Under the pieces are notes generated by a model, which was given only the letters and a program-made list of their open reading frames with translations, was not told where the DNA came from and did not search any database. Both the position numbers and the translations under genes were made by a program. A stretch of 64,000 nt of DNA from Paracoccaceae bacterium (GTDB lineage Bacteria > Pseudomonadota > Alphaproteobacteria > Rhodobacterales > Rhodobacteraceae): contig JABSSD010000002.1 of assembly GCA_013214575.1 (NCBI GenBank), forward strand, positions 62,001 to 126,000, read 5' to 3'. The first letter of the stretch is position 1. The number at the start of each line of letters is the position of its first letter. This document shows positions 21,914 to 61,753 of the stretch, piece by piece.

Positions 21914-21999
21914 GCGGTCGTGGCGGAATGGTAGACGCGCAGCGTTGAGGTCGCTGTGGGGTAACACCCGTGGAAGTTCGAGTCTTCTCGACCGCACCA
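21914..21999 (+). tRNA. tRNA-Leu (anticodon GAG), encoded CCA
   Basis: Acceptor GCGGTCG/CGACCGC, anticodon arm CAGCG-TTGAGGT-CGCTG, long variable arm, T-arm GAAGTTCGAGTCTTC, A + CCA. Confidence 0.95.
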
Positions 22000-22002
22000 T
22001 TG
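21978..22002 (+). repeat. att site, copy 1 (tRNA-Leu 3' end): TCGAGTCTTCTCGACCGCACCATTG
   Basis: 25-bp exact direct repeat with 47509-47533; core also at 61082-61099. Confidence 0.92.
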
Positions 22003-22080
22003 CCTTGTGCAATGTATCTCCTTGATTTACAATAAATCCCTATATTGCAAGGCTTTCCGGCATCGCTGGGCCGTTGTTTT

Positions 22081-22112
22081 TTGCACATGCTTTGCACAAA
22101 GTTTGCACAAAA
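22081..22112 (+). promoter_or_regulatory. Putative integrase arm-type sites (element 1, left): TTGCACAT, TTTGCACAAA, TTTGCACAAAA
   Basis: Three direct repeats just upstream of the likely integrase GTG start (22124); the same motif occurs twice near the right end (47407-47428). Confidence 0.6.
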
Positions 22113-22123
22113 GGGTATTTCCA

Positions 22124-23806
22124 GTGGAGAAGAAGGTAAAAGGCGCGCGCAGAATCGGGCAGACATGGCATTACAATATCCGCGTTTCAAAGCGGCTGTC
22201 TGATGCCTATGACCTCTGCCATGCCTTCTCCAGCTACAAAGGTGGGTTCATTCGAGGAACCATGCGGACCAAGTGTCCAGATGAGGCCGAGCGCAATGTC
22301 AGGGCCGTTCTTGCGAAATTGGACCAGATGGCGGCTAAACTGGATTCCATTTCTTCTCGGATCAAATCGTTTGGTGAGCTGAGTGAAGTGGAGCAGGGCA
22401 GGCTGGGGGACGATCTAGACGCTCGTATTGCCAAACTACCTCATGACCTAAAGAAGTTGTTGAAGGGCGAAGGTGGTGTTTGGAAGGCGGGCCAGAAGCT
22501 AAAACAGTTCAAAACCGAAGCTGCATTCCTAGAGGCCGGGGCAGGTTCCGAGTACGAAATTATGGAAGCACTCGGCAAAGAGTACGACCCAGAAGATCGC
22601 GATGATGACGAAGCGCAGGAGCGCTTTGACATAGAACGCGCGCAGCAGAAGGCAGGCAAATACGAGAAAGCACTGACTGCCGCTGGTGTGATTGAGCTAT
22701 CCGCTAATGCGGTCATGGGTTTTCGCTCCTTGATGGACAAACTCTGCAACGCCAAGGGGTACGTTCATTCTGTCAAGGCAAAGAACAAGACCCGGGGGCA
22801 GTATGAATATGCGGTACGTCGGTTTGTAGAGTATCATGGCGACCTGCCGATTTCAGAGTTGACCCGAAAGCACCTGTCAGATTTCAGCATGGACTTTCTG
22901 AAGCTGCCAGTATCGTCACGAAAGGATATCCGTCCCTTGGCATTTTGGGAAGCTGTTCGGGCAGCAGACCGGGAAGGTTTACCACGCGCGTCAATCAGGA
23001 CACGTGACCAAAATTTGATCTTGTTGAAATCTGTACTGGCCTTCGCGTTTAAGGAGGGTGATCGATTGGGCGTTGACCCATGGGCTGGTTATGAGCCGAC
23101 TGTGGCGAAGCAGAAGGTCAGTGCGGTGCTGGAGAAACACCGGCATGTGTTTAGTCGCCACGAAGTGCAGGCCATAATTGCGTTTACCAGCAAGACCCGT
23201 GACCCGAACACGATTGATTATTGGGGGCCGCTCTTTGGAGTGTACTATGGGTTGCGATTGGAGGAGATTTCTCAGGTTCGCACGGTGGATCTACCAAATG
23301 AAGAAGGTTTCCTTTGCGTCACTATTACAGACGCAGGTGAACTTCAGACGGTGAAGAACTCAAACTCGTTTCGTACTATTCCCATCCATCAAGATTTGAT
23401 CGGGCTAGGCTTTGGCGAATTTGTGGAGCGCCGTAGCAAGGCGAGCGGTGATATGCTCTTCATGGAAGCCGATCGTTGGCGCGGCTCGTTACATGAAATC
23501 AAACCAGATGGTCAAGGTCGGCACGGTACAATGTATGGGTCTCGTTTCGCAGACAAAGAATATGGTGTATTGGCAAAACTCAATATCATCGGGCACAAAG
23601 CTGGATTCCACAGCTTTCGGCATGCGTGGACGGACCTAGCGCGCAATGCTGGTATTAATCCGGAACACAGACGTGCATTGGCGGGCCGGGACAGCGAGGC
23701 CGAAAGCGAAGGTGTGCGAACTGACAACACTGAAAACAGGTATGGTCATGGGTTTGCTATTGCTGAGTTAGCTAAAAGCTTGAACCAACTGAAGCCTCTA
23801 GGCTGA
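22124..23806 (+). CDS. Tyrosine-type site-specific integrase (element 1)
   Basis: C-terminal catalytic signature 'LRLEEISQVRTVDL', 'HKAGFHSFRHAWTDLARNAG', 'NRYGHG'; adjacent to tRNA-Leu att; in-frame GTG at 22124 preferred over ATG at 22007. Confidence 0.9.
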   Translation: MEKKVKGARRIGQTWHYNIRVSKRLSDAYDLCHAFSSYKGGFIRGTMRTKCPDEAERNVRAVLAKLDQMAAKLDSISSRIKSFGELSEVEQGRLGDDLDARIAKLPHDLKKLLKGEGGVWKAGQKLKQFKTEAAFLEAGAGSEYEIMEALGKEYDPEDRDDDEAQERFDIERAQQKAGKYEKALTAAGVIELSANAVMGFRSLMDKLCNAKGYVHSVKAKNKTRGQYEYAVRRFVEYHGDLPISELTRKHLSDFSMDFLKLPVSSRKDIRPLAFWEAVRAADREGLPRASIRTRDQNLILLKSVLAFAFKEGDRLGVDPWAGYEPTVAKQKVSAVLEKHRHVFSRHEVQAIIAFTSKTRDPNTIDYWGPLFGVYYGLRLEEISQVRTVDLPNEEGFLCVTITDAGELQTVKNSNSFRTIPIHQDLIGLGFGEFVERRSKASGDMLFMEADRWRGSLHEIKPDGQGRHGTMYGSRFADKEYGVLAKLNIIGHKAGFHSFRHAWTDLARNAGINPEHRRALAGRDSEAESEGVRTDNTENRYGHGFAIAELAKSLNQLKPLG

Positions 23807-23892
23807 AAGTAAGGGTTGGCCCTCTATTGGGGCACTAGTGCTAGCAAGGTCAACTGGCCGCCAAACTGACATGGCTCACTGCGGGGGCACCA

Positions 23893-24789
23893 ATGTTTAT
23901 CGACAATGAGTGGGCGGACCTGTTAGCCGCGAGGGCGACGCTGAGAGTGTCAGATTTTAGGAGACGAGATTTGGAACCGGATCGTATTTCACTGTCGTAC
24001 GTGGTCCATTGCCTGCTCCAAGGTAAGAATTTGGAGAGCGATTCTGCGAAGAAGGGCATGGTCTACGAGTTCCCCGACGATATCGAATTTTCTGAGCCGC
24101 TGATAAAGGCATTGCAGACAGGTGAAATCGAAGCTCGAGGTACATTTTCTCGTGTTCGGTTAGACTATCCTATATTCGAGAAAGGCGATTCCAATGTTCA
24201 ACTCTCCCTGCTGTCCGCCGACTATCGAAGTAGGCACGATGTCATCATTGGAATAGGAGAAGAGGCTGCACCATCGGATATCCCGCGCTCCTTATGGTCG
24301 TATGAGGGCGCTATCTGGGAGAAATCGATACTATGGGTTGTAGATCCAAAGGCTCTCGAGGAAAGCCGAGGGCGCGGCCTCAAGATCGAACGGACTGCCC
24401 CATTTCCACCGGAACGGCCCTTCGACTTCGTGGAACTGACCTGCTTCGATGGTGTTACGTTGAACTTGTCGGAAGCCTTAGGTTGGGCCAATGGTCAGGC
24501 TCTCCGAGGTGCCAAAAAGCCTACGAAAAATGACCGAAATGCCGGGGTAAAAGCAAAAGAAGATTGGAAGGTCATTGAAAAATGGCTTGAGAAGAAAATT
24601 GAATCTGGGCAGATTTGGAACAACTGGGATGACGTTTGGTATAGTCTCCAACATCTTCTCAAAACCGCCAAATCCACGAAGACTCCCGCCCAGCCTTACA
24701 AGCCATTGGAAAAACGGCTGCGTGATCACAACACGAAACTTCTCGTTGCTCTAAGGCGGCAGATCAAAACATCTCGGACAAAGAAGTGA
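23893..24789 (+). CDS. Hypothetical protein
   Basis: 298 aa ORF between integrase and primase, no recognisable motif. Confidence 0.6.
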   Translation: MFIDNEWADLLAARATLRVSDFRRRDLEPDRISLSYVVHCLLQGKNLESDSAKKGMVYEFPDDIEFSEPLIKALQTGEIEARGTFSRVRLDYPIFEKGDSNVQLSLLSADYRSRHDVIIGIGEEAAPSDIPRSLWSYEGAIWEKSILWVVDPKALEESRGRGLKIERTAPFPPERPFDFVELTCFDGVTLNLSEALGWANGQALRGAKKPTKNDRNAGVKAKEDWKVIEKWLEKKIESGQIWNNWDDVWYSLQHLLKTAKSTKTPAQPYKPLEKRLRDHNTKLLVALRRQIKTSRTKK

Positions 24790-24920
24790 GGGCTTCGGGT
24801 GAACCTGAAAGTACGATTTAATCGGTACTAAGTACAGATTAACTCATTCTAATCGTTCAGTTTAATTTTCAAAACTACGTTGCTACAACATCCTCACATC
24901 CAGTCACAAAGGAGTTTGAG

Positions 24921-27900
24921 ATGTCACTTGGTTTTAAAAACCTACCCCCTGTGGAAGCCTCCACAACCACACCGATCCAACCTCGCGCGCTGGGCGCCGA
25001 TACGTCAGATCAGATCGAAACCCCGTTGTGTGTTCCAAATGTCACCAACGGCCTGACTGCTGATCGGAACGACACGGTCATCGACGTGTCAGAAGCATTC
25101 ATCAGAGAACAGGCGCACAACGCCCGAGACAATGCTGGTGACATGGCCGAAGACGCCGCTGGCGCTGCGCACAAGGCTCAGGCTGCGTCAGAGGGCGCGG
25201 ACAGTGATGTTGCGCCCAATAGCGCACATGGCACCCAACACACTGGCTTCGAACCTTACAAGTTCAATGACGCCGTGGTTCTTGGTGACCTAGAAAGCGT
25301 GGCGTGTGATGCGCTATTGAACAAGACAATTGTTGTTGCTGGATCCCAGTACGCGCCACGCATCAGCGCGGACAAATGGGTTCGGCGGGAATGGACTTGG
25401 GCCGAGTTGTTCGCCACTACATCCCTTCATCCGATCTCACCAAACAAAGATGGTTCCGCAATATTCTTTGCGGAAACCGAGCTGACCGGCAAGACACAAA
25501 CTGGCAAGGTCGGCGCTGATATCATCACCACTGAATTTGTCTACAAGCTGAAAGACAAGGTGCTCCGCATCCATGCCGTTGCAATCGATGTTGACGGTAC
25601 TGACAAAGTGGGTCGGCTGGTAGCTGTTCTGCAGGAGATGGGGTTGTTGGCTCTGGTCTACACGACACATTCCCATGCCCTCAAAAAGACGGCTACTGGG
25701 GATCGGTTCCGGATAATTGTTCCCTTGGACGAACCGTTCGACTACGCACTTTATAGCAACCACAGAGAGGCGGAGAACGCGTGGAAGAGCCGTTATGTTG
25801 GGTTTGTCGAGCAGCTCGGCCTGACTGACTTTGACGTCGCTGGAATGCGCCCCACCCAGCTTATGTACATGCCACGCCGTGCATCAAAGGATGCGGAGTT
25901 CCAGCATTACATTATCGCAGGTCGTGGGTTGCGCGTTGAAGACATGCCCAAAGGTGATGCGTCGATATATTGCAAGGGGAGTGGATCACGCTCCGGCAAA
26001 ACATACGATGATGCGGACACCGGCAAGCCAGCTTTTCTGTCTGACGGTTTTGATGTCCGGGCATGGTTTGACGACTGGGGGCAACATTTCCTGCTGGAGG
26101 ATCTCATAGACTGGATCGGATGGGACAACTACGGCAGTGCAGGAGATGGTTTCAACGTCGTCTGTCCCAATGACGCGGCCCACTCAAATGCCGGTGAACA
26201 GGACACCGCAACGTGGGCTTGCGAAGGCGATCCGGACAATGACGCCGGGTTTGTCATCACCTGCCACCATGACCATTGTGCTCAGCTTTGCACATGGGAT
26301 TTCACCCGCATGATCGAGGAGAACTGTGCGCTGCCTGATGACTGCGAGACGTTGTCGGACCTGTTATGCGCTGACTACCTGTATCCGAATGACATCGGGG
26401 CTGAGGTCTTCAAGGAAGACTACATCGATTTCACACCGGTGATTGAGCATCTCAAGACACCTGAAGCCGTCAAACGGGCATTCAAAAACGTGTCTGAGAG
26501 AGCTTCTGAAGATGCCTATGCGGCCCTCTATGCAGGGGTTCAGAAAAGTGGGTCACGGCAAAAAGCACAGGTAACGCTTGATGAGCTGATGAGAGGCGTT
26601 GGCGCGTTCAACGCAAATGATCTGAAGCGGCTGAAAAAGCGCGGTGAAGACATGCTGCAGGCCGACAGGGCCGCTCAGGTGGCGGAGCAGGCAGCCGAAC
26701 GAGTGGTGCAGAACAAGGAAGCCCTCAGCCGGACTGATCTTGCGAACCCGTCCATGGACGTGGCTGAACCTTTGGGCGACACCCTCGAGGAGGCACTGGC
26801 GACACTTGGGAACCGTTTTGCCCTATGTGACTTGGATGGCAAATTCCGCGTTGTACGGAAGCCTGACCTTTCGGCGCTAAACGCCGACTACAAGGGCAGC
26901 ACGATCATTGTCAGTACCAAGGAAGATTTCATCGCGCTGCATGATGATCGTGTTATCCCGAACGTCGATGGTCCGGGGTTCACCCATCCGGCGAAAGAGT
27001 TTCTTTGGACTGAGAAACGGAAGTCAGGCATCGTTTTTGCCCCGCATCCCGTCACTGCCGGACCGAACGATTTCAATATGTACTCCGGGCGGACACTGAA
27101 AAGTAAGGCCGGGGATTGGTCGACCATCAAGGACTTCATTTTCCGCATCGTCTGTAAGAAGGACCCGATGAAATATGCGTTCACCCTGTTGTGGATGGCG
27201 CACATGGTCCAGTATCCGGGGATCAAGCCCGGCACTGCGATTATCTGCCGTGGCGCAGGCGGATGCGGTAAGAGCACCTTCGGTGAGATATTGGCCAAGC
27301 TGGTTTCTCCACATGTGAAAATCCTCGAAAAGGAGGAGCATGTCGTTGGGAGATTTGCCGGAGAACACCTGAGTAAGTGTATCCTAGCAGTCGTGACTGA
27401 GGCTGTGTTCGGCGGGAACCCCAAGGTGGCCAGCGAGCTGAAGTCGATGGTGACGTCCAGCACGGTACAGGCCGAGGCCAAGGGAATGGCTGTTGTGACC
27501 CTCCCATCTTATCAGCGGACATACTTCGACTCCAACGGCGACCTTGTTGTTCTGATCGAAGGCAACGGCTCTGAGCGGCGGTATTTCGTGATGGAAATCT
27601 CGAAGGCTGAAAAAGGCCAGAAGGACTACTTCAAGAATCTGTATGCAGCGATTGAAGGTGACGAAATGGCGGCCCTGTTGGACTATCTGGAATCCTATAA
27701 TCCGGCGGATCATGGGCAGGACTGGAGCGCCTTGCGCTGCGCACCCCACACAGCAGAGCGCGACCTGATGGCCTACCACACGCTGCGTGCCCCTGTGCGC
27801 CGGTTGCTGGAAGTGATCCGTGATGGTGAAGTCACCCTTGGCCAACGTGATGTGGCGGAGGATTTCACATTCGTCGATGGGGTCAACATCAGAGTCCCTC

Positions 27901-28181
27901 GGCCCTTGTTCCGAGAGTATATCCGGTCAGTGGGCAATTCCAACAGGGCTGCTGATGGGGACATCGGCGCAATGATGCTCCAGCTCTTCAAGGTCGAAGA
28001 GGTGGATGTTGGAGGCGACCGCATGCCGCTCGTGCGTGAGCGGCGAGGAAAGGTTGGCTCGGATGCCAATGGATGGTTCTTTGAGTTCCCACCCCGGGAT
28101 GTCTTGTTGCCGCTGCTCGTGATTGATCCAAATGAGGGACAACCGGAAAAGGTTGCGGGGCCTGAGCCAGTTTCAGATTGA
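24921..28181 (+). CDS. Large primase-helicase (AEP/PrimPol-like N-terminus, DUF5906/D5-like helicase C-terminus)
   Basis: 'AVAIDVDGTD', 'LVYTTHSHALKKTATGDRFRIIVPLDEPF' primase-like; Walker A 'CRGAGGCGKSTFGEIL'; D5-like C-terminus. Confidence 0.8.
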   Translation: MSLGFKNLPPVEASTTTPIQPRALGADTSDQIETPLCVPNVTNGLTADRNDTVIDVSEAFIREQAHNARDNAGDMAEDAAGAAHKAQAASEGADSDVAPNSAHGTQHTGFEPYKFNDAVVLGDLESVACDALLNKTIVVAGSQYAPRISADKWVRREWTWAELFATTSLHPISPNKDGSAIFFAETELTGKTQTGKVGADIITTEFVYKLKDKVLRIHAVAIDVDGTDKVGRLVAVLQEMGLLALVYTTHSHALKKTATGDRFRIIVPLDEPFDYALYSNHREAENAWKSRYVGFVEQLGLTDFDVAGMRPTQLMYMPRRASKDAEFQHYIIAGRGLRVEDMPKGDASIYCKGSGSRSGKTYDDADTGKPAFLSDGFDVRAWFDDWGQHFLLEDLIDWIGWDNYGSAGDGFNVVCPNDAAHSNAGEQDTATWACEGDPDNDAGFVITCHHDHCAQLCTWDFTRMIEENCALPDDCETLSDLLCADYLYPNDIGAEVFKEDYIDFTPVIEHLKTPEAVKRAFKNVSERASEDAYAALYAGVQKSGSRQKAQVTLDELMRGVGAFNANDLKRLKKRGEDMLQADRAAQVAEQAAERVVQNKEALSRTDLANPSMDVAEPLGDTLEEALATLGNRFALCDLDGKFRVVRKPDLSALNADYKGSTIIVSTKEDFIALHDDRVIPNVDGPGFTHPAKEFLWTEKRKSGIVFAPHPVTAGPNDFNMYSGRTLKSKAGDWSTIKDFIFRIVCKKDPMKYAFTLLWMAHMVQYPGIKPGTAIICRGAGGCGKSTFGEILAKLVSPHVKILEKEEHVVGRFAGEHLSKCILAVVTEAVFGGNPKVASELKSMVTSSTVQAEAKGMAVVTLPSYQRTYFDSNGDLVVLIEGNGSERRYFVMEISKAEKGQKDYFKNLYAAIEGDEMAALLDYLESYNPADHGQDWSALRCAPHTAERDLMAYHTLRAPVRRLLEVIRDGEVTLGQRDVAEDFTFVDGVNIRVPRPLFREYIRSVGNSNRAADGDIGAMMLQLFKVEEVDVGGDRMPLVRERRGKVGSDANGWFFEFPPRDVLLPLLVIDPNEGQPEKVAGPEPVSD

Positions 28182-28310
28182 AATAGGATTGGGCGCGTCA
28201 GCGCCCTTTCCCCTTTCGGGTGTTCCGCCTCCTCCCGCCTCCAAGTGTCCCAAGATGGGTGGTAGTGTGAAACGCCTGCCTTTCCTCAGTAAAACATCGC
28301 TCTTATCTAT

Positions 28311-28344
28311 AACCTCCAAACCTCCAAACCTCCAAACCTCCAAA
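28311..28344 (+). repeat. Four tandem 8-bp repeats (AACCTCCA)x4
   Basis: AACCTCCAAACCTCCAAACCTCCAAACCTCCAAA; inverted copy TTTGGAGG at 28529-28536. Confidence 0.85.
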
Positions 28345-28580
28345 GAGTCTGATTTGGTTCAGGATTGCCAAGCACACACACCGTGTCCGGTCGGTTAATG
28401 GGTAGTGTGTGTCTCATCTCCAATCCTGACGACAAAGGGGCCGAGTGGAGGTCTGGGGGGTAGGGCCAGAATACACTGCGTTTATGCTTCAGTTCAGGCA
28501 TTTGCCGCCCTCCAACTCTGGTGGGGCGTTTGGAGGCGGGGTGAGGCGACAGAACAGCACCAGAAAGAAACACGGTACAT

Positions 28581-29171
28581 ATGCCTCACACACACGACAT
28601 CTTAGACAGCGCCCGTCTCCAGCTCACGAAGGAACAGGGAACGGTCGCATCAATCAAACCCACTTGGTTGAGCGACGTTATTAAAAAGCGATACCCAGAT
28701 GCATACACTTTTGGACGCTTACACACTCATGAAGTTTATTACCCGACAGATGTCACTGACGAGGTTGAAGCTGCGATTTTTGCAGCAGCATGGAAACTGG
28801 GCGGCTGGCCTCTTAGGCAGAAGTTCGGAAACGAGGGAGTGATCTCACTTTTTCTCCGCTTTCAGCCTTATGACTTGTTGCGCAGCGGCCTCCGCATTCC
28901 TCGTGAAATTTCCGTTCACCGAGGAACAGACGACAGTAATTTTGCACAGGACAAATCCCCAATGTCATGGACTACTTCGAAGCCCATCGCTCGACAATTT
29001 GCCCTCAATAACGAAAAGTCCAACCCGTTGTTGGTCAGCGGCACTGTATCTTCGGAAGACGTATTAATGAGTTTACGAAATGATGCTGAGAAAGAGGTCG
29101 TGGTGCTTCCCGGGTCGGTAAGCGTTGGCAAATGCACCCGGCCTCGAAACCCCGCATTTGAATTTCAGTGA
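28581..29171 (+). CDS. Candidate ADP-ribosyltransferase-fold protein (R-S-E type)
   Basis: 'ISVHRGTDDS', 'SPMSWTTSKPIARQFA', 'AEKEVVVLPGSV' in the order and spacing of R / S-x-T / E-x-E motifs. Confidence 0.5.
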   Translation: MPHTHDILDSARLQLTKEQGTVASIKPTWLSDVIKKRYPDAYTFGRLHTHEVYYPTDVTDEVEAAIFAAAWKLGGWPLRQKFGNEGVISLFLRFQPYDLLRSGLRIPREISVHRGTDDSNFAQDKSPMSWTTSKPIARQFALNNEKSNPLLVSGTVSSEDVLMSLRNDAEKEVVVLPGSVSVGKCTRPRNPAFEFQ

Positions 29172-30200
29172 GCAACTCTCATACGTCCCTGCCGGAAGAG
29201 GTTGAGACAGGCGGCGGTACAGGCGTACAGAAAATCCCAGATGTCCGGATCAACCACGCCAAGCTGGAACTGTAATGTGACGACATGGTGAGATAGCACG
29301 CGTCTGAACCAGTAGAGGTCCCTTGTCGGGGGCCTTAAGAGACTTGTCCGTCACACCCTGTCGCCCGGCTCGGACTTGCACAACACACTTCACATCCACG
29401 CCGCTGGGAGTTGTCATGCCAGCGGTCAACTTGACGTAATAGGCATGAAATTTGGCATACTCGCGCTAAAACAGCCAGAATTAAGCAAATCAGGAGCAGC
29501 AAGCCTGTGACAGTGCAACCTGTCCATAATGTCGCTGCATATCACTAGCAGCCCGATACGCGGGCAATCACCAAAAGCCCTGAGGGAGGCGCAGACCATC
29601 TTCCAAACCGCCCGTGCAACTTTCCGACACAAGATCGACCGCCGCTAGGAATCTTGGCTATTGCTCAACGCAAATGGCTGGCTGTTTCGAACAGTTGTGA
29701 TTTCTTCATATAGGAAAACATGCATGCGGAGATGTTGCTCAGTACCCACGGCCCAATGATACGGTCAGATGGTCGCTAAAGAGTCCAAAAACTATCTTGG
29801 TGAGCGCCAGCATTTGATACGAAGGCCGGTTTGCAGACTTGCGCTTCGATCTGCACGGACGACGGGGAGTGCTACAAAACAGCCGATTGCTCAAATTCCG
29901 CCGCAAGGTGTGAAGGCCATTCTTTGGCCCGTAGCGGTTCAATTTTGACCACGTCGACTGCCGCGACGACTCAGCGGAATTGCAATCCAAAGAATTTAGC
30001 TGATTTCATTGAATAAATTTGAAAAATGATCCGCAGGTTGCCTGTGGGGTATCAGTGGATTAGTCGCTGAATGTAAAATGACACTACATACACCCAAGGC
30101 TGCATTTCGTGGGTCATTAACTCAAAACCCTCGACGCCAAACACATCGAAGTTGACTTTGTGCATCTCACAGGCCACCTTTTCTGAAGGAGTGGATATGA

Positions 30201-31349
30201 ATGAGCAAATTATTGAAGGCCCTGCTTTCTGATACATGGATTGCACACATCGGGCGACTTGGAGCAATTCTTTTCGGATTCTACTCACTATACTCTGCTT
30301 CAGGTGACTTTAAGATTTGGTTTGACAACAGTTTCGGGCAAAATCTGAGCGTTAAGGTGCTGACCGTTTTGATGATCTTCTTCCTTGGATCGTGGTTGGT
30401 TTCACTCAGGCACAACATTAATGAGTTGCTCCCAGAAATTAGAAACTTGCGAGAGCGTGATGCTGAAAGGATGCTACAAATTGAGCAATTTGAAGCTCAA
30501 CCTGATGCTCCTTCAATTGAGACAACGTTTATAGATTCGTTTACTGAATATGCAGGTAAGCTAATCGACGACCGCCGCTACGCACATGTCCTGCGGCTCA
30601 GAGAAACTCTCTCTAGATACCTATGGATTGAAGGGCTTCTCAGAGCGCGTGTGTCACTTGGTCGAGTAGCAGAGACTGCGGCTGCAAGGACTGGGGACAA
30701 AAGCACACAAATTGCAGTACTTATTGATGATCTCGGTTGGACGCTGGCGGCCCAAGGTGAATTTGCTCAGGCAAAAGAAAAAATCGAATTTGGCCTCAAG
30801 CTTGCTGAACAGGGTACCCAATATTATTGGATTTCCAAAGCGCACCGCCATCTTGCTGGTATTCTTACAATGTCTCGAGATTTTAAGGAAGCAAAGGAAC
30901 ATATCAAAAAAGCAAGAAATGCGGTAGAGCAAATAGAAGATGCCAATCAAAAAACAGAAATGTTGGGGGGGCTTTCGCATGCCGAAGCCGTTACAGACTT
31001 ATTCTCGGGAAATTTTGAAGGGGCAATGGCAAAGGTTAAAGACGCCGAAAATCTCTTCTTAAGAACCGGAGATCAAGCTAGATTGCTCAGATCATATGCT
31101 ATGAAAGGAAAGATACTTTTGGCTTCCGGTGGCATATCTGCCCGGACTGAAGCTAGAAGCAATTTCCTTCGCGGGCTAGAAGAAGCACGTTCTTTAGGTC
31201 GGAGAGATGAGGTCGTAAGAAACCTAAATGGCCTCATCCGCCTCGCTGATCTCGAGGGAGAGACTAGCTCTGCGCAAAAGTACCGAGAAGAAGTGGCTGT
31301 TCTTATTGGCGAGACACCAGTTCCTTTTGAAATCGTTGATCAAGTATAG
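30201..31349 (+). CDS. Membrane-anchored TPR-repeat protein
   Basis: Two N-terminal hydrophobic segments, then TPR-like repeats ('LIDDLGWTLAAQGEFAQAKEKIEFGLKLAEQG'). Confidence 0.65.
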   Translation: MSKLLKALLSDTWIAHIGRLGAILFGFYSLYSASGDFKIWFDNSFGQNLSVKVLTVLMIFFLGSWLVSLRHNINELLPEIRNLRERDAERMLQIEQFEAQPDAPSIETTFIDSFTEYAGKLIDDRRYAHVLRLRETLSRYLWIEGLLRARVSLGRVAETAAARTGDKSTQIAVLIDDLGWTLAAQGEFAQAKEKIEFGLKLAEQGTQYYWISKAHRHLAGILTMSRDFKEAKEHIKKARNAVEQIEDANQKTEMLGGLSHAEAVTDLFSGNFEGAMAKVKDAENLFLRTGDQARLLRSYAMKGKILLASGGISARTEARSNFLRGLEEARSLGRRDEVVRNLNGLIRLADLEGETSSAQKYREEVAVLIGETPVPFEIVDQV

Positions 31350-31352
31350 GAG

Positions 31353-32000
31353 ATGAAAATGGTAGAAGAGATTGTTGATTTCTTTGACGAAAATTACAAA
31401 AAAGTTGGTGAAGCCGGGAAAAAGAAGACCCGGGCCGAAGGTCTCTGGGTGCACTCGTTCCACTGTTGGATAGTCTCTACTAAAGGAACTCCTTCAATGC
31501 TTCTTCAGAAGCGATCATCCAAGAAGGCTCTCTTCCCTGACTGTTTAGACATAAGTGCTGCAGGTCACCTCCAGACAGGAGAAGCCGTCGCCGACGGAGT
31601 AAGGGAGATAGAGGAAGAAATTGGTCTGCATGTTGTGTACGATGAACTAATAAGTCTTGGTGTAAAAATGGATGTTGCAAAGATTGGAAACATCATCAAT
31701 AGGCAATTTGCGAACGTATTTTTATACCAATTTGATGGAGACATCGACGACTTAGACTTAGATGCTGTCGAGTTAGATGGAATGCTAATGATGCCTGTCA
31801 AGGATGGGTTGGATCTATTTAGTGGTAAAGTGCCTTCTGTGTCTGTGTCTGGCATAGAGAAGGATGACGATGGCCAATGGGGCAGGATCACAAAACAAGT
31901 GTCACCTAGAGATTTCATTCCGAGGGTCGACCCATACTACTATAAGATGTTCATTAATGCCGATCTACTTCTGAACGGCTATTCACATCTTTCAATATAG
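31353..32000 (+). CDS. NUDIX hydrolase
   Basis: Nudix box 'GHLQTGEAVADGVREIEEEIGL' matches GX5EX7REUXEEXGU; 3 nt after the TPR gene. Confidence 0.9.
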   Translation: MKMVEEIVDFFDENYKKVGEAGKKKTRAEGLWVHSFHCWIVSTKGTPSMLLQKRSSKKALFPDCLDISAAGHLQTGEAVADGVREIEEEIGLHVVYDELISLGVKMDVAKIGNIINRQFANVFLYQFDGDIDDLDLDAVELDGMLMMPVKDGLDLFSGKVPSVSVSGIEKDDDGQWGRITKQVSPRDFIPRVDPYYYKMFINADLLLNGYSHLSI

Positions 32001-32007
32001 CTTAACG

Positions 32008-35309: not shown

Positions 35310-35321
35310 AAAGGACAGATT

Positions 35322-35891: not shown

Positions 35892-35896
35892 GCCAG

Positions 35897-53196: not shown

Positions 53197-53358
53197 CGTG
53201 ATGGCTGAAAGTTCTTATGCTGGCAAAAAACTACGTTCAGCCAAATTGGTCAATCTATTGAATCTCAACTGTATCTTGGATGATCAAGTAAGCCAAACGT
53301 CATGACCATCTTTGGGAAAAGCAGGCCATTTGTGTGATCTGGAGTAGAACGCAATAAG

Positions 53359-53937
53359 CTAAACCTGTGCGGACGGGACCACAGCCAGTTCCTTACGGAT
53401 CCTATAAACAGACGCGACTCCAACATTGGCGAACGTGGCAATCTGGGCTGGGGCGACTCCAGCTGACAGCATTTGACCAATGGCACCGCGGTCGATTGTC
53501 CTCGGCTTCCCTTTGTACTTTCCAGCTTTCTTCGCCTTCGCAATCCCCTCACGTTGGCGTTGGCGGATCAGACTGCGCTCAAATTCTGCGATGGCGCCTA
53601 GTACTTGCATCATAAGTCGACCTGCGAAATCTTGCTTATCGCTGGAGAAGGTCAGATTCTCTTTCAGGAAATGTACTGAAGCACCTGTTTCCACCATCTC
53701 ATCCACGATGTTGGTCAAGTCCGTAAGTGACCTGGCCAAACGATCAATGCTGTAAACATAGACTTCGTCGCCAGGTTCAATCCGACGCAGCAGTTCTGCC
53801 AGTTCCGCCCGTGCAGTCCTGCTGCCTGCCGATACCTTCTCCTCGTACATGTTCTTTGCAGAAATGTCGCCCGGTAGTTCTTGACGATCTGTGGATTGAT
53901 CTTCTGATGAAACGCGCTTGTACCCAAGTTTTGCCAT
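53359..53937 (-). CDS. Serine recombinase (resolvase/invertase family)
   Basis: 'LGYKRVSSEDQSTDRQEL', 'VYSIDRLARSLTDLTNIV', 'IRQRQREGIAKAKKAGKYKGKP', C-terminal HTH. Confidence 0.93.
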   Translation of the reverse strand: MAKLGYKRVSSEDQSTDRQELPGDISAKNMYEEKVSAGSRTARAELAELLRRIEPGDEVYVYSIDRLARSLTDLTNIVDEMVETGASVHFLKENLTFSSDKQDFAGRLMMQVLGAIAEFERSLIRQRQREGIAKAKKAGKYKGKPRTIDRGAIGQMLSAGVAPAQIATFANVGVASVYRIRKELAVVPSAQV

Positions 53938-53971
53938 TGATGCTCTTCTTTTACCGTTAGACTCTTAAGTT

Positions 53972-53995
53972 AACTGATAAACGTTTCTATCAGTT
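53972..53995. promoter_or_regulatory. Inverted repeat AACTGATA-N8-TATCAGTT upstream of the serine recombinase (candidate res/crossover subsite)
   Basis: 8-bp perfect inverted repeat about 35 bp upstream of the recombinase start. Confidence 0.5.
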
Positions 53996-54305
53996 TTAAA
54001 TGGACCCTATTGGTAGGACTTTTCCGGATCTGGGCGGCTATCGTTTGGGTGTACCCTAATGACGGGCCCCGCAAGGTCGAGGTCATCCAAGTAGGCGGTC
54101 TATAGTCAAAGCGTTTCAAGATTGGTCTACAACTCCGTGCCTACCAGTGCATCAGGTCCCTCGGGTGGTTTAGTCGAAGCCACACCGCAACAGATAGCCG
54201 ACTTCGACGGAACTTTGTGTCCGAACTTGGTAGGGTAACTTAGGGAGGTAAGCTCAAGTCTCACGTTCACATCCGCCACAACTCCGTTTGAATGAACGTT
54301 AGATC

Positions 54306-56018
54306 TCACGGTAATGATTGGGCGAACTTGACCGAAAGGATTTGAAAGCTAAGGAGACGCTTCAACATGTGTTCTAGATCACTTTTCTTGGCTTGTTGAG
54401 CCTCCAGATTGACTCTCAATATTGCGAGCCTCTCAGAAACCCTGTTGTACTTTAAGGACGCCAACCTCAAAGTCCCATAAGTGGTTTCCAAGTCAATCGT
54501 GTGATCCAATAGTTCCATCCGGGCAGTGCTGAGGTGCTGCTTCAACTCTTCGATTTCAAGTTTTTGAGATCTAATTGCCTCACGGAGTTCTCGACGAAGA
54601 TTCATTCTTATTCTTCGGTCCTTCAAATTTGCCTGGAATGTGCCATTGTTGATTGGTATGGTTTCTAATAATTTCAGTTCGCTTTGATATAGCTTTGCAA
54701 GCTCTAGATAGGCTGAGTTTATCAATTTCACCATCTTGTTTTGGTCGACGGTTTTTGATTGGCGATCTGCCATTATTTTTGAGATTCGTTCCTTTATTCC
54801 TGAGATGGTTTGTTTCTGAATGTCACGTTGCACCTCTGTATCTTTCAACGATTCAGATAAGTGCAGCAAGGCCGGTGCTAGTGACTTAGTTTCTTCTCGG
54901 GCGTCAAGTATTAAGGCGGTGACAGGGTCCATTAACAAGTTGAATTGACTCTCTATAAGGCCGCGTAATTTCGACATGGATCCTGATTTTTCAATCTCAG
55001 ATGATAGTCGTGCAATATTATCCGCAAGCTTCGAGGCCGTTGATATGTCGTCAGCAATGTTTGAAATATTATCTTTGTTTGGCTGGTTTTCCTTAAAAGG
55101 TACGTGACGTATAAAAAAGGGTTTGTGGCTGATGTCCAAGCCACCAGTGTTAATATTGATCCCCGTTGTGTATGGGTGAATGCCATCCAATGGTGCGCTC
55201 CAGTGACTGAGTTCACTGGAGATGTTAGGGGTTCCAGTATCCGAAAATACATGTCCGACCTTGAGGAAGTATTCGCGCCAGTCCAACGCGTCTTGAAATT
55301 TTGAAGGATCCCTAAATCCATTTCTTACTTCAAAATTGCTATTGCATGAAGTGTCAAATTTAGGTGAAATTGCACGGTAGTGAGACGACCAAGCACTTTC
55401 GATTGGGTCTGCAGCGACTGCCTGGAAGGTGGAGCCGGGGTTGGTAACCGCATTCTGTAATTGAAGAGCCGCTGGGCTAATACCGGCTTGGTGGGAAGTA
55501 GTGGATACATTAGCACTGTGTTGAACACGAGCAGCGAATTCACCCTGGAGTTTCAACCTATCGCTTAAGTTACGCGAGGCGATTGATAGGAAGGAAATAA
55601 CTTCAAGTTTTCTTTCCCTGACGACAAGTAATTCCATGGCATACTCAAGATTGGTAAGCTTGGATTTCAATAGATTATACCGAGATCGGACGGACTTGGT
55701 TGTCCAAACCCGACCATCAATTTTCATGAAGGTTGGCTCGTCCCAATTGAATTTTTGCAAAATGCGGTCATACTTATCAAGTTCACTAGCCTCTAATCTC
55801 CCGATTGGACGATATGGAGATTTTGGGTAACCTAAGTATTGAGTAGTAGTGAAAGGTGAAGTGTGTCTAGCAAAAAAGTCGAAGATGTGTTCACCTGGAT
55901 TCGGCCCCGTTGGTACACACGATGTATGCCAATTTGCTAACGACGTTTGCGCCTGTAGTAGCGTCGAGACAAAAACTAAAGGAACAGAAAATAAAATTGC
56001 TTTAAGGTTATAGTTCAT
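54306..56018 (-). CDS. Secreted coiled-coil hypothetical protein
   Basis: Signal peptide 'NLKAILFSVPLVFVSTLLQAQ' from M at 56018; long heptad-rich C-terminus; overlaps upstream gene by 11 nt. Confidence 0.65.
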   Translation of the reverse strand: MNYNLKAILFSVPLVFVSTLLQAQTSLANWHTSCVPTGPNPGEHIFDFFARHTSPFTTTQYLGYPKSPYRPIGRLEASELDKYDRILQKFNWDEPTFMKIDGRVWTTKSVRSRYNLLKSKLTNLEYAMELLVVRERKLEVISFLSIASRNLSDRLKLQGEFAARVQHSANVSTTSHQAGISPAALQLQNAVTNPGSTFQAVAADPIESAWSSHYRAISPKFDTSCNSNFEVRNGFRDPSKFQDALDWREYFLKVGHVFSDTGTPNISSELSHWSAPLDGIHPYTTGININTGGLDISHKPFFIRHVPFKENQPNKDNISNIADDISTASKLADNIARLSSEIEKSGSMSKLRGLIESQFNLLMDPVTALILDAREETKSLAPALLHLSESLKDTEVQRDIQKQTISGIKERISKIMADRQSKTVDQNKMVKLINSAYLELAKLYQSELKLLETIPINNGTFQANLKDRRIRMNLRRELREAIRSQKLEIEELKQHLSTARMELLDHTIDLETTYGTLRLASLKYNRVSERLAILRVNLEAQQAKKSDLEHMLKRLLSFQILSVKFAQSLP

Positions 56019-57438
56019 TGAGATTATCCTTGAGGATAGAAATTGTTTCGAAAATGTTGTCGTAGTTATATTGGGCTGTCTCGAATGCACTTTCATCCCT
56101 AATTTGTTTTTCAACAATTCCCCATCGTGCTTTCAATGTAGACACTTCGGTATTTGTTTGTTTTAGTTCAAAATTAATGCCTGCGATTGCAGTCTGCGAT
56201 GCGCGGATGGAGCTTTCTACTCTCGAAATCTCCAACTCCAAATTTGAGATTTTCTGAGAGTATCGGGATATAGATCGAGAGGCGCGCCTCTTTTTGTCAT
56301 GATCTTTCGGCCACTCTTGGCGTGCTGTCGTTGATTTCGAAGTGTTGCAAATGTATGCACTATCAACCATTCTAAATGGGTCGTTGTGGTGTGCGCCGCC
56401 GCCACAGTCGTAAGGGAAATGGCCACGTATTCTTCGTTGTGCGGAGTTGAAATCCGACTGAGCGGCTCTCATGAGTTTTTGAGCTTGAGAACGTTGATGT
56501 GCAAGGTCAGAAAGTTTTTCCGATCTTAGTGAAATATTCCTATTTAAATCTTTCTTTTCAGCCTTAAGTAACGTGATGTGCGAATCTAGTTGTTCGATTG
56601 TCTCGGAAAGTTCACCGAATACCCGCTCGAGTTCCTCTTGATCCTTGATCGTCTGCGCGAGTATTAGTTCCGCTACAATCAGCGTATTTTGACTACGTTT
56701 AATTTGTGTACCCACAATTTCTGATAATTCGAGATCCCGTTTGCGGATCTCCTTTTCTAATAACCTGATTTTTCTATTTACGTTACTTCTAGTTTTCGAC
56801 CATGTTGGTATTACGATGAGCTCCAATTCAGCTCTCGTAAAATTGGCGTAAACTTTGTACAGTTTCAAAAACCAGTCGTCATCAGTGGTTGGTATGAAAA
56901 ATTTCGAAAACGCTCTAAGTGATACTATGCGCTTATGCAGTTCTGTAGGAATTTTCTTCAGCTTCTTGAGTTGTTCTCTTGCGTCGTCCAAAGCGATTAT
57001 CTGGTTTTGCAGGTCCCATAGGAAAATGGAAGTTGATTTTGGGGTGATGGGAAAATCACTTGGTGCTATAGGAAGGGGGGCAAACTGGAAATTTACTTTA
57101 TTAAAGTGTGCGCTAATTTTATTTGCCTGTTTAGTGAGTTCTTTTGAGGTTGGGCTTGAATTGTAAAATGGCGGGGTTACATCGATAACATCTTCTGGTT
57201 TGTCTAAAACAATCCCATGCCTGCTCCTTTCGAACCAGCCATACCATGCCTGAGCTTTCTCGATATCCTTCCACAGACTTCTGAAATCCTTGGCCCATTT
57301 GTACACCTGATGGGAGCTTGCAGATAGACCGTTGTTTGTATCTTGTGCATTGAGATAAGTTGGGGAAATGTACATTACTGCAAAAGATATCAATATGGGG
57401 ATAGTTGTTTTTCTTAAATACTTCCTAATGTTGAGCAC
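56008..57438 (-). CDS. Secreted coiled-coil hypothetical protein
   Basis: Signal peptide 'KTTIPILISFAVMYISPTYLNAQ'; extensive coiled coil. Confidence 0.65.
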   Translation of the reverse strand: MLNIRKYLRKTTIPILISFAVMYISPTYLNAQDTNNGLSASSHQVYKWAKDFRSLWKDIEKAQAWYGWFERSRHGIVLDKPEDVIDVTPPFYNSSPTSKELTKQANKISAHFNKVNFQFAPLPIAPSDFPITPKSTSIFLWDLQNQIIALDDAREQLKKLKKIPTELHKRIVSLRAFSKFFIPTTDDDWFLKLYKVYANFTRAELELIVIPTWSKTRSNVNRKIRLLEKEIRKRDLELSEIVGTQIKRSQNTLIVAELILAQTIKDQEELERVFGELSETIEQLDSHITLLKAEKKDLNRNISLRSEKLSDLAHQRSQAQKLMRAAQSDFNSAQRRIRGHFPYDCGGGAHHNDPFRMVDSAYICNTSKSTTARQEWPKDHDKKRRASRSISRYSQKISNLELEISRVESSIRASQTAIAGINFELKQTNTEVSTLKARWGIVEKQIRDESAFETAQYNYDNIFETISILKDNLNEL

Positions 57439-57639
57439 AAATTTTTCCTCGCGATAATAGTGGTATAGGAAATTGACTCACATCCTGTAGGGTCCTTGTG
57501 TCACAATCAAGGGTGTAGGGGCTGTGTTCAGCTGCAGCGACGCCACGTATTAAAGACGCTTGAGTTCTGCTTTTTGATTTTCTTGTACCCTACTTCGGCG
57601 CGGAAGGTTGCTTGTAGAAGAGTCACTTACCGTAGCCTG

Positions 57640-58040
57640 CGGTCTACCTGGCGGGGCGAAATTCTTTCGTTTGTGGTTTGATTTTATCCCAAATCTTCGG
57701 GGGAGTCCCAAGTTGGGTCAGTGTGGACTCTCTAATGGCTTCGATCTCAGCCAGCGGTTCGTCATGGAGCTTGAGATGTTCCTCAAATTTTTTTGATCCC
57801 ATATTTGGGTCCGTGGACATTCGTCTTGATGCGCTGAGGGCGGCAACAAGGTTCCAATTTGCGACATTTCTGCTATCGGTGTTGTCGTAACGCGTTGTGA
57901 TAACGCGAAATATTTTGATCCTTGCGAAGTGATTTTTGACCAGTCGCCGCCAACGGTAAGCATCCACATCGTAGTCCGTTGTATTATTCGGTTCGATTTT
58001 GGTGGTATGACTACAGTCACATATCTATCCATTTTGGTCC
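57640..58040 (-). pseudogene. IS5-family transposase C-terminal remnant, frameshifted
   Basis: 'YVTVVIPPKSNRI' in one frame and 'DAYRWRRLVKNHFARIKIFRVITTRYDNTDSRNVANWNLVAALSASRR' in the next frame. Confidence 0.75.
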
Positions 58041-58087
58041 GGGTGGAAAAATTACCCCCTGGGCCAATCTTCCTTTTTTGTCACTCA

Positions 58088-59449
58088 TTATGCATGCCCC
58101 ATGTCGTTGTGACGTTCATCGATTAGCTGCTTGATCAGTTCAGAGAGGACCCGAACCGATTTGTGCCGCGGGAAAGTGCTTTCGAGATATTCGATGTCGC
58201 CTGATGTCAGGTCGAGAAAGCGTCGATCAACTCCCAGGTTGTTAGCGTAATCGCCGATGATTGATGTGATGATCGGTCGGACCTGTTCCTGCTGCGGAGC
58301 ATCAATGGAGTACACCGTGCATCGCGATAATAAGGGGGCTGGGATAGTGTTCAAAGTATTCGCTGTGAACATCCATGAAACTCTGCTTGCATTCACCTCG
58401 CAGGCGAGGAACTTCTCATACCAGTGTGAATTTTCACTTGGTTCAAGAAGGGGAAGCAGCGCACCGTGAAGGTCACCATTGTGCGAGCTATCTGCTTTGT
58501 CAATTTCGTCAATCACCATTAGAGGATTGATCATCTTTCCGTCAGCCATTGCTGCAGTGACGCAGCTCGGCGTTGCTGTCGACCAACCTGCAGATACTCC
58601 GAAAATATTTGAATCGCGCATACCAGCAACGTTGAGAGTTGCCATGTAAACGCCGAGAATTTGTCCAATCTGTTGAAGTAACTGGGTTTTGCCGATGCCT
58701 GGCGGGCCCACCAAGATTGTTGGTCGAAGTTGAATTTCGTCCTGGCCAAAGTTCCAGCGCCGAAGGAGCTGGGATGCGATACCCATGATCGCAAGTTCTG
58801 CATTTGGAAAAGTATTCTTCAAGGCCTCGAGTTCCTTAATCTGGCCAATGCCATGGAGCCTTGCGACTTCCAGTGGTTTGAAGATGCGCTTAATGCGGGT
58901 GTTTAGTTCTCTCTTCACAGAGCGTTCGAGCTCATTTTCAGGTTTTTTCAAATACAACTCAAACTGCAGATCGGACACAGTCTGATCTAGAGGGATGACT
59001 GTTTTGCCTCGCATAGCGCTCTCCCGTTCAGCGACGATCTTCTTTAGAAACGACAAAGGAGTTTTGCGAATCATCTGACGCCAAGTGCGCCGCCAGGATA
59101 AAGGGTTGCCTGTTGCCGCGATGGCAAATCCGATATTGGATGACAACTGCTCATCATTATCTGAGAAGTGCGATTTCTCGAACTCTACCCATGGATCTTG
59201 GTCGGATTTCGAATGAAAATGGTGAGCCAGCGTTGTCAGATCGCAAGCTTCAAGAATTGTAGACTTGATCCATTCAAGATCGTCGTAGTCGAGCTTTTCG
59301 AAAATGTCACTTAAGCGGATTTCATCAAACGGATCGCCGTTGGACCAACGCTCGATCATTTCAATCCAACGAGGATCTTTGTCATTCTCTGGCGTGCTTC
59401 CGTAAGGTTTAGCGTCTTCTTGCGCTGCATGCTTGTCTTTGGCTGGCAT
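58088..59449 (-). CDS. Lon-like AAA+ ATPase without protease domain
   Basis: Walker A 'LVGPPGIGKTQLLQQIG', Walker B 'LMVIDEIDKAD', 'SWMFTANTLNTIPAPLLSRCTVYSID'. Confidence 0.85.
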   Translation of the reverse strand: MPAKDKHAAQEDAKPYGSTPENDKDPRWIEMIERWSNGDPFDEIRLSDIFEKLDYDDLEWIKSTILEACDLTTLAHHFHSKSDQDPWVEFEKSHFSDNDEQLSSNIGFAIAATGNPLSWRRTWRQMIRKTPLSFLKKIVAERESAMRGKTVIPLDQTVSDLQFELYLKKPENELERSVKRELNTRIKRIFKPLEVARLHGIGQIKELEALKNTFPNAELAIMGIASQLLRRWNFGQDEIQLRPTILVGPPGIGKTQLLQQIGQILGVYMATLNVAGMRDSNIFGVSAGWSTATPSCVTAAMADGKMINPLMVIDEIDKADSSHNGDLHGALLPLLEPSENSHWYEKFLACEVNASRVSWMFTANTLNTIPAPLLSRCTVYSIDAPQQEQVRPIITSIIGDYANNLGVDRRFLDLTSGDIEYLESTFPRHKSVRVLSELIKQLIDERHNDMGHA

Positions 59450-59473
59450 TCCAGACTCCTCCGATGAAGTAAA

Positions 59474-59569
59474 TGGTAGGAGGGCAGGGACTCGAACCCT
59501 GATGTGTCACAGTAATCTGCTGCCGACGAAGAAGGGGTATAAACCCGACCACCGCACCTGCGCCCTCCC
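59474..59569 (-). tRNA. tRNA-like sequence (possibly degenerate), encoded CCA, long variable arm
   Basis: Minus strand: acceptor GGGAGGG/CCCTCCT, T-arm CAGGG-TTCGAGT-CCCTG, then A + CCA; variable-arm hairpin GTCggCAG...CTGtGAC; D-arm not convincing. Confidence 0.4.
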
Positions 59570-59761
59570 AAAGAATTGGGTACATATCTGCTTAGGCAGA
59601 TATGTTTTGGGACGCGGTATGGTTGAGCGCGGTCATCATGGTTCTTGTAGAATAGGCCTCTTCATTTTGCCCGTCAATATAGAAGACGTTTAGCCGGACC
59701 GTCGCGTGAAGCAGAGAAAAATCTTCGAAATACTCCCAGACTTGTGTGTCGCCCACTCAGA

Positions 59762-60934
59762 CTAAGGGCATACAAATTGTGACCATTTCAGCATTAGCGC
59801 CCGCCTAGGGGCCAATAAGTCCGAACGATGATACGACCGTTCAACTGTGCCGCCTACAACATGTGACAACGATGTTTCTGCGACTTGCCATGTACCTGCC
59901 TCTGTCTCTCGCGTCCAATCTTTGAAGCTGCTTCTGAAGCCGTGTGGGCGGCCTTCTTCGCCCATTTCGTTGAGAACTTTTAAGAGTGCATTCCCATGGA
60001 TGGCTTTGTTCCGGTGCCCAGGGAAGAGGAAACCATTTTTACTGCGCCTTCGACAGTCTTCAGCAATTCGAAGTGCTTCTAGAGAAAGAGGAATGCGAAC
60101 TTCCTTGGTCTTGCCCTCTCTGCCCTTGATGCGCAGGGGGGGGACTGTCCAAACATCGTTTTCGATTTCTGAGAACTGAGCCCCGCAGATACTGGCAGCG
60201 CGTGCTGCTGTTAGGATCAGAAAACGTAGTGCGAGATGACTCGATGTTTTCTTATGTAGGCGCCCGTAGACAGAAGGCACATCTTCCCAGGGCGTGGCCT
60301 CAATATGCCTTGTCACGTGGCTTTGGGCCCCGAGTTGCTCCGTAGCCTTATTTACGATTTGGGGATCAACTGTGCACTCATGTAAATGACAGTGCTTGAG
60401 AACGAGTCGTGTCCTTTGCGCGACTTTCTCCGAAGTTGGCACTTTGGATTTCCATAAAGGAGCCAGTACTCTCTTGATGTCCGCTACCGTAAGCGTCGAG
60501 ACGCGCCGCTTGCCTAATTTCGGGATAACATGAACATCCAATGGGGACCGCCACCGCCCCGCTTTTCCTCCCCTTTTTAGGTCGTCTTTGTTGTTTTCGA
60601 GCCAGTGGTCAATCGCTTTGGCAACGGTCGGGTCATATTTGTTCTGTTGGAAATTTTCCTTCGCCCGTTCTTCGTCTCGAGCCGAGATGGGGTCAATGCC
60701 GCGGTTTTTCTTTCTTTCCCATGCATCCCTCTGACTACGAGCATCGGCAAGGCCAATTGAAGGATAAGTCCCAAGGCCCATGTCCCTTCGGTTTCCGATC
60801 AGGCAATAACGATAGATCCATTTTCCCCGGTTTTTCCCATACATCTGAAGTTGTAGGCCGCCACCGTCATACAACACTCCGATTTCGGTATTCTTGATTT
60901 TTGTTACACTTAGTTTGTGCCTTGCTCTACTCAT
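59762..60934 (-). CDS. P4-type tyrosine integrase (DUF4102 N-terminus), element 2
   Basis: 'KIKNTEIGVLYDGGGLQLQMYGKNRGKWIYRYCLIGNRRDMGLGTYPSIGLADAR'; catalytic 'GRPHGFRSSFKDWT', 'LSHVVGGTVERSYHRSD'; M at 60934 preferred over 61009. Confidence 0.9.
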   Translation of the reverse strand: MSRARHKLSVTKIKNTEIGVLYDGGGLQLQMYGKNRGKWIYRYCLIGNRRDMGLGTYPSIGLADARSQRDAWERKKNRGIDPISARDEERAKENFQQNKYDPTVAKAIDHWLENNKDDLKRGGKAGRWRSPLDVHVIPKLGKRRVSTLTVADIKRVLAPLWKSKVPTSEKVAQRTRLVLKHCHLHECTVDPQIVNKATEQLGAQSHVTRHIEATPWEDVPSVYGRLHKKTSSHLALRFLILTAARAASICGAQFSEIENDVWTVPPLRIKGREGKTKEVRIPLSLEALRIAEDCRRRSKNGFLFPGHRNKAIHGNALLKVLNEMGEEGRPHGFRSSFKDWTRETEAGTWQVAETSLSHVVGGTVERSYHRSDLLAPRRALMLKWSQFVCP

Positions 60935-60946
60935 AGATATTTCTCT

Positions 60947-60967
60947 GGCCCCACAATTAGCCCCACA
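60947..60967 (+). promoter_or_regulatory. Putative integrase arm-type sites (element 2, right): GGCCCCACA, AGCCCCACA
   Basis: Same motif and 12-bp spacing as 47586-47607; just upstream of the likely integrase start. Confidence 0.6.
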
Positions 60968-61039
60968 CTTAGCATGCAATTCTGTGCATCTTGTCGCGAC
61001 TGGCTGCAACGGTCATGTATGTAACCTATTGAAAATAAA

Positions 61040-61753
61040 CTATTCATGCGTTGCTCCGCGACAGTCTGCAGCACCAAGTGTGTCTTCTCGACCGCACCAA
61101 AATCCAATTGATAACATTGGATGAAATACCCTAAACTTAAGTTTAGGCCCCACTCTGGCCCCCACTTTAAACGTCGCTTGGCGGCGTATACAATGTGTCG
61201 ATCCGTGCGCCGGAAAGACCGGGCGCGCAGCCTTGTAGGGAAAAACCTTTTTGATCAGCCCATCGCGCACCATCTTATAGAAGGTGTCCTTCTGAAGGGT
61301 CCACCGCGGTGAACGGATCGCCTCAACCCCGGTTGCGAAGTGCCAGGGCTGAACCGGCTGGGTTGGTGGCTGATCGTTATCGACCCGCTCTTTTGCATGT
61401 CGATGCATCACGGGGTTTTCGACGGCGACACGGGGGATGTGTGGTACGTTCCAAATCGCTGAGAGCAGCTTCACCCCGTCATCCAGCTCATTCCACATGT
61501 CATCTAAGCTGCGCCCAGTTGGTGGACTTGCAAGCCAGCGCACTCCGCTGTTGCACAGGCGCGTGATGGGTGGATGCATAACCGCCATCAGATCCCAGTC
61601 ATTCTGCATGATATCGAGGATGTCTCCTTGAATGTGACGATTGGTCGGCCGGTCGGCTGCCAGTTGGTCGCAGGACCAAGCGTGGTGACCAGAGGCCAGA
61701 AAGGCATCACGGACGATCCCGCTGGTTTCACATCCAATGAGTATTCCTGCCAT
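61040..61753 (-). CDS. Phage-type protein resembling DNA methyltransferase-like family (C-terminus runs through att)
   Basis: 'GCETSGIVRDAFLASGHHAWSCDQLAADRPTNRHIQGDI', 'HPPITRLCNSGVRWL', 'VAVENPVMHRHAK'; the 3' end crosses att copy 3. Confidence 0.5.
   Translation of the reverse strand: MAGILIGCETSGIVRDAFLASGHHAWSCDQLAADRPTNRHIQGDILDIMQNDWDLMAVMHPPITRLCNSGVRWLASPPTGRSLDDMWNELDDGVKLLSAIWNVPHIPRVAVENPVMHRHAKERVDNDQPPTQPVQPWHFATGVEAIRSPRWTLQKDTFYKMVRDGLIKKVFPYKAARPVFPAHGSTHCIRRQATFKVGARVGPKLKFRVFHPMLSIGFWCGREDTLGAADCRGATHE
61082..61099 (+). repeat. att site, copy 3 (junction of elements 2 and 3), GTCTTCTCGACCGCACCA
   Basis: 18-bp exact match to the 3' part of the tRNA-Leu att repeats. Confidence 0.87.
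61145..61166 (+). promoter_or_regulatory. Putative integrase arm-type sites (element 3, left): AGGCCCCACT, TGGCCCCCACT
   Basis: Related to the element 2 motif and at a similar distance (about 47 bp) downstream of the att copy. Confidence 0.45.

Follow-up and report, generated by a model that had tools for sequence, protein, structure and literature searches.

A probable tandem accretion array of integrative elements at the 3' end of a tRNA-Leu(GAG) gene in a Rhodobacteraceae genome

The tandem accretion of ICEs, IMEs and CIMEs at tRNA genes or other sites has been reviewed, including a tandem at a tRNA-Lys gene in which the integrases are less than 30% identical and composite excision occurs between the outer att sites (PMC5704250). 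The island arrays of Dehalococcoides, which sit at ssrA, are marked by 20-bp repeats of the RNA-gene 3' end and use a single serine recombinase family, DsiB (PMC3146451). P4-like satellites with defence hotspots are a third point of comparison (PMC9122126).

The 64-kb stretch of DNA analyzed here (the window), from a marine bacterium of the Rhodobacteraceae, contains a tRNA-Leu(GAG) gene followed by three units (Table 1). As in ICE/IME/CIME accretion, the units stand in tandem, distantly related integrases share the same target, one neighbour is decayed and the att sites are chimeric; unlike in those systems, the elements look phage- or satellite-like, and the larger ORFs scanned with Pfam included no relaxase or conjugation genes. 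The array shares with the Dehalococcoides islands the presence of several islands behind one RNA gene, the older far-end parts probably being fixed, but it has two unrelated-looking tyrosine integrases in opposite placement rather than DsiB serine recombinases. With P4-like satellites it has in common a P4-type integrase (element 2), a primase-like backbone gene (element 1) and anti-phage cargo such as Gabija, yet the P4-type integrase and the primase sit in different elements. Element 2 has the P4-type integrase of such satellites and the integrase of element 1 differs; the element 2 ORFs scanned gave no match to a P4 alpha-type or other primase, and the primase-like protein of element 1 accompanies an integrase of another type. 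The general gene searches also brought up no P4 packaging or regulatory genes. Stacks of this kind are well described from other bacteria, and the tRNA-Leu array is a further case of tandem accretion at a tRNA site. Our search of a literature collection for tandem islands at tRNA-Leu in Rhodobacteraceae found none, and a broader roseobacter search returned nothing relevant by title or abstract.

Attachment sites and the two proximal elements

The original prediction was that the tRNA-Leu 3' end is repeated exactly at a second site and that an 18-bp core recurs at a third, and both repeats were recovered as proposed. The 25-bp sequence TCGAGTCTTCTCGACCGCACCATTG had one further exact match in the window (0 expected in shuffles), and the core GTCTTCTCGACCGCACCA recurred exactly at copy 3; allowing up to 3 mismatches to this 18-mer gave 3 matches, where 0.06 were expected. 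The 17-mer common to the three copies occurs exactly three times in the whole 5.59-Mb assembly, always at the tRNA-Leu array and in one orientation, and the genome has no further exact core copies. The G+C content is ~60% to the left of the tRNA gene versus roughly 43-55% to its right. Two core types can be distinguished: type 1 spans 22 bp, from TCGAG to CCA, and type 2 spans ~16-18 bp, copy 3 being without the left 4-5 bp (TCGA(G)) of the type-1 core. Because these lengths match those used by relatives of each integrase type elsewhere, copy 2 resembles an attR of type 1 and copy 3 an attR of type 2, and each would have been generated by the element to its left.

Table 1. Features of the tRNA-Leu(GAG) array, in window coordinates.
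Feature	Position	Strand	Evidence or predicted role
tRNA-Leu(GAG)	21914..21999	+	attB gene, its 3' end forming the proximal att copy; sole ARAGORN tRNA in the window
att copy 1 (25 bp, TCGAGTCTTCTCGACCGCACCATTG)	21978..22002	+	attL of element 1
Element 1, 25.5 kb	22003..47508	+	att copies, arm-site-like repeats, related elements; integrase, DUF5906/primase, serine resolvase, Gabija, other cargo
Int1, divergent tyrosine recombinase	22007..23806	+	phrog_1 E 2.7e-18; 599 aa is the longest ORF, true start may differ
Element 1 left arm-site-like pair, TTGCACAAA at 22092 and 22103	22092..22111	+	Repeat search
Primase/helicase-like protein (DUF5906)	24921..28181	+	DUF5906; phage primase families
Serine resolvase/invertase, element 1	35322..35891	+	Domain search; present in related elements too
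Gabija GajB	39613..41535	-	PADLOC E 4.7e-259
Gabija GajA	41523..43307	-	PADLOC E 1.8e-216
GmrSD_N-domain protein	44150..46429	+	Pfam E 8.5e-31
Element 1 right arm-site-like pair, TTGCACAAA at 47409 and 47420	47409..47428	+	Repeat search
att copy 2 (25 bp)	47509..47533	+	attR of element 1 / attL of element 2
Element 2, 13.5 kb	47534..61081	+	HTH_17 gene, HIRAN/HipA_C pair, serine resolvase, AAA ATPase, P4-type integrase
Element 2 left arm-site-like pair, GCCCCACA at 47587 and 47599	47587..47606	+	Repeat search
HTH_17 protein	47611..47916	-	Pfam HTH_17 E 4.6e-6
HIRAN protein and HipA_C-like protein	51503..53196	-	PADLOC candidate defence pair PDC-M03B/A, E 3.3e-25 and 4e-34
Int2, P4-type tyrosine integrase	59762..61009	-	Pfam Arm-DNA-bind_3 + Phage_integrase; N-terminus toward copy 3; G225 and L112 share the layout
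Element 2 right arm-site-like pair, GCCCCACA at 60948 and 60960	60948..60967	+	Repeat search
Truncated DNA methyltransferase	61040..61753	-	phrog_757 E 8.5e-28; homology only in residues 4-143; open frame crosses copy 3
att copy 3 (18-bp core, GTCTTCTCGACCGCACCA)	61082..61099	+	attR of element 2 / left end of unit 3
Unit 3, window part	61100..64000	+	Left end of decayed phage-derived element; arm pair, phage genes, integrase remnant on C125
Holliday-junction-resolvase-like phage protein	63542..63958	-	DUF1064

Element 1 had been expected to carry its integrase at its left end, and its first gene, beside the tRNA, encodes Int1, a divergent recombinase that matched only phrog_1 and phrog_216 in profile searches and had no match in Pfam or NCBIfam. 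The window has four exact copies of the motif TTGCACAAA and no more, arranged as 11-bp-spaced pairs ~90 bp inside both ends of the element. As a control for such arm-like repeats, whose motifs were chosen after looking, we counted the 9-mers shared by random pairs of 250-bp segments from the element interior; 14 of 1910 pairs shared as many as the two ends of element 1, whose motif had been noticed beforehand. The Gabija GajA/GajB pair (39613-43307) looks complete, and a separate cluster at 30201-33759 contains genes for a TPR protein, a NUDIX protein, a histidine phosphatase and an amidohydrolase.

The P4-type integrase anticipated at the right end of element 2 is Int2, which lies at the far right end, points left and has the Arm-DNA-bind_3 and Phage_integrase domains. 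It had been described as unrelated-looking next to Int1, and BLASTP found no significant similarity between the two (best E 0.45), yet both match phrog_1. Inside both ends of element 2, GCCCCACA is present four times in 12-bp-spaced pairs, although the random-pair control was weak here, 122 of 1806 random 250-bp pairs equalling the two ends in shared 9-mers. Judging from its domain, the HTH_17 protein is a possible AlpA-like excisionase of this element. Other genes of element 2 code for an AAA ATPase and a second serine resolvase of the array. Three consecutive genes (54306-59449) encode proteins of 603 aa (no match), 476 aa (a coiled coil with a weak LmuB match) and 453 aa (an AAA ATPase with a weak DolB match), and are possibly an undescribed defence operon.

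The third unit and the sister-species locus

Phage-type genes were also expected after copy 3, as was a third element. The genes are present, largely as fragments, and the element has its own arm pair and is a decayed remnant, part of which would lie beyond a contig break. The arm pair, GCCCCAC (61147) and GCCCCCAC (61159), matches in kind the pairs of element 2 and of the second element that the sister species described below carries. Unit 3 also encodes a repressor-like protein, followed by fragments of lysozyme, terminase and IS110 transposase at the end of the contig (C112:126882), 882 bp beyond the window; its window part consists mainly of phage-gene fragments and has no integrase. From the fit of the contig ends, unit 3 would continue past the C112 end into C125:1-~2232. 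Contig C125 starts inside IS110, followed on the minus strand by a broken P4-type integrase (~1718-2171) with Phage_int_M and Arm-DNA-bind_3 domains and 38% identity to Int2, and then, from 2233, by synteny with the sister species (G003), in which the integrase remnant is partly shared.

We take C112 and C125 to be contiguous, a join made by elimination and without overlap, because the C112 tail (...GACGCCATT) and the C125 head (ATTTGTGAAGC...) are consistent with a single copy of IS110 from which 12 bp are absent, going by the C114 copy, and because C23 and C114, the sole competing contig ends with the same IS110 repeat, are contiguous in G003. A continuation from C112 into C114 was rejected despite a 130-bp end overlap, since C23 has the same overlap and adjoins C114 in G003. 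No core copy with up to 4 mismatches was found in C125:1-15000, and the attR of unit 3 is for this reason taken as lost.

Comparison with a relative that lacks the elements had been suggested as a check, and the sister species, which is 94% identical at lipB-tRNA, provides it: its locus has the same tRNA gene and right flank (the matching flank lying on C125) with different DNA between them, and neither element 1 nor element 2 has a match there. The other genomes of the genus in the comparison all differ to the right of tRNA-Leu as well. G003 has a stack of its own at this gene, with a second core copy (two mismatches) and a P4-type left end, a fragment without a family match that on visual inspection resembles a truncated integrase and, likewise judged by eye, an IS3-like insertion. 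The same array encodes a caspase-like, Sel1-repeat protein (L036:4735-7041). REP-like dispersed repeats of ~65 bp, which match at more than 30 places in the genome, were seen at L036 ~17196-17261 and 19485-19566 and on many G000 contigs.

The failure to find an attR and the fragmentary, integrase-free window part would suit a reading with two elements only, in which copy 3 closes the array and the DNA after it belongs to old chromosome or to the remains of an unrelated prophage. We regard this as unlikely, since the arm-type pair after copy 3 lies at a distance similar to that in element 2 and in G003's own second element, and the presumed right end has what is left of a P4-type integrase, oriented as expected.

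Related elements in Rhodobacteraceae

A genome search recovered relatives of Int1 in 10 other genomes among 397 of the family, versus none by a pattern scan of genome contigs with Int1. In 6 of the 10 genomes the relative lies beside tRNA-Leu(GAG); the rest are at tRNA-Thr (2), tRNA-Pro and tRNA-Cys. Three genomes (G294, G172 and G067) have an int1 gene, a large primase and a serine resolvase between tRNA-Leu(GAG) and an exact copy of TCGAGTCTTCTCGACCGCACCA, in elements of 12.9, 14.7 and 25.0 kb, respectively. The end repeats of the G172 element are stronger, with 17 shared 9-mers, a count that none of 1823 random pairs reached. The layout is mirrored in G225 and in Thalassobius vesicularis (locus L112), where an Int2-like integrase adjoins the left side of a distal core copy that is shorter. 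Relatives of both types are found at the same tRNA, in the same orientation and with the matching distal core (22 bp for type 1 and ~16-18 bp for type 2).

The exact core was present in 167 of 298 family genomes, with at least two copies in about 14 and three copies only in the present genome. Among 76 lipB-tRNA loci, 5 had an integrase of the Int1 or Int2 type within the downstream DNA covered. The tRNA-Leu(GAG) site is used now and then, and the triple stack is rare; decayed copies escape this count.

Proposed assembly, history and possible mobility of the array

We consider it very likely that the locus is a tandem accretion array, in which three separate integrative elements entered the same tRNA-Leu(GAG) 3' end at different times. 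The tRNA end is followed by two same-orientation copies of its 3' end; Int1 and Int2 are intact and a third integrase, if the contig join holds, is broken on C125; and relatives lack the units at this site or have other DNA there. The original prediction of a tandem array at one attachment site is supported by the use of this tRNA by both integrase types, with the same polarity and the same core copy elsewhere, and by the arm-site-like pairs, which elements 1 and 2 have at each end and unit 3 at its left end. The different DNA between tRNA and right flank in G003 agrees with it too. In such an array, a tyrosine integrase would recombine the attP core of its element with the tRNA 3' end, leaving the element downstream, closed off at the far end by a copy of the core, and restoring the tRNA, which would be free for the next insertion. 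Int1 (proximal, with TTGCACAAA arm pairs and the 22-bp core) would have brought in element 1, and the distal, P4-type Int2 (with GCCCCACA arm pairs and the ~16-18-bp core) element 2. A third element of phage origin, also with a P4-type integrase, would have arrived first and then decayed through truncation of its methyltransferase, lysozyme and terminase, insertion of IS110, breakage of its integrase and loss of its attR.

We infer the order of arrival from comparison with the sister species. Since G003 has part of the integrase remnant too, unit 3 or an ancestor of it would already have been in place when the two species separated. Elements 1 and 2 probably arrived after unit 3, because they have no match at the G003 locus, and the proximal element 1 perhaps came last.

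Both elements 1 and 2 are apparently intact, and their anatomy suggests that excision of single units is likely. Composite excision may be possible, given the published precedent at the tRNA-Lys gene (PMC5704250); we go no further than that because copy 3 is without the left part of the type-1 core. The same precedent, in which integrases as dissimilar as <30% identical did not prevent excision between the outer sites, lends something to a reading in which the three blocks arrived in one event, as a composite island built by earlier accretion and transferred whole, and still move as one. We think this quite improbable, as elements 1 and 2 each have their own integrase and arm repeats, copy 3 is without TCGA(G), G003 shares part of the remnant at the right end of unit 3 and has neither element 1 nor element 2 at this locus, and single int1 elements occupy the same tRNA in three relatives. 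That the repeats are chance or tRNA-gene remnants rather than attachment sites deserves hardly any credence: tRNA-end copies may be left by other events, but the excess over the 0.06 matches expected, together with only three exact copies in the assembly, rules out chance, and integrases and arm-like repeats adjoin the copies in a layout repeated in other genera.

Within tandem accretion, a more speculative proposal, which we hold only tentatively, is that element 1 belongs to a little-described family of Rhodobacteraceae elements targeting tRNA-Leu(GAG), perhaps phage satellites, with a divergent integrase without Pfam match, a large primase, a serine resolvase and defence cargo. As part of this same tentative proposal, the two integrase types would partition the tRNA end by core length and opposite placement, and the stacked units would excise independently.

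The locus is a well-bounded natural example of defence-carrying elements piling up behind one tRNA gene, with two apparently intact units that have separable recombination sites beside a decayed unit partly common to a sister species. It yields exact attP and attB predictions and draws attention to a family of elements in Rhodobacteraceae with a preference for tRNA-Leu(GAG).
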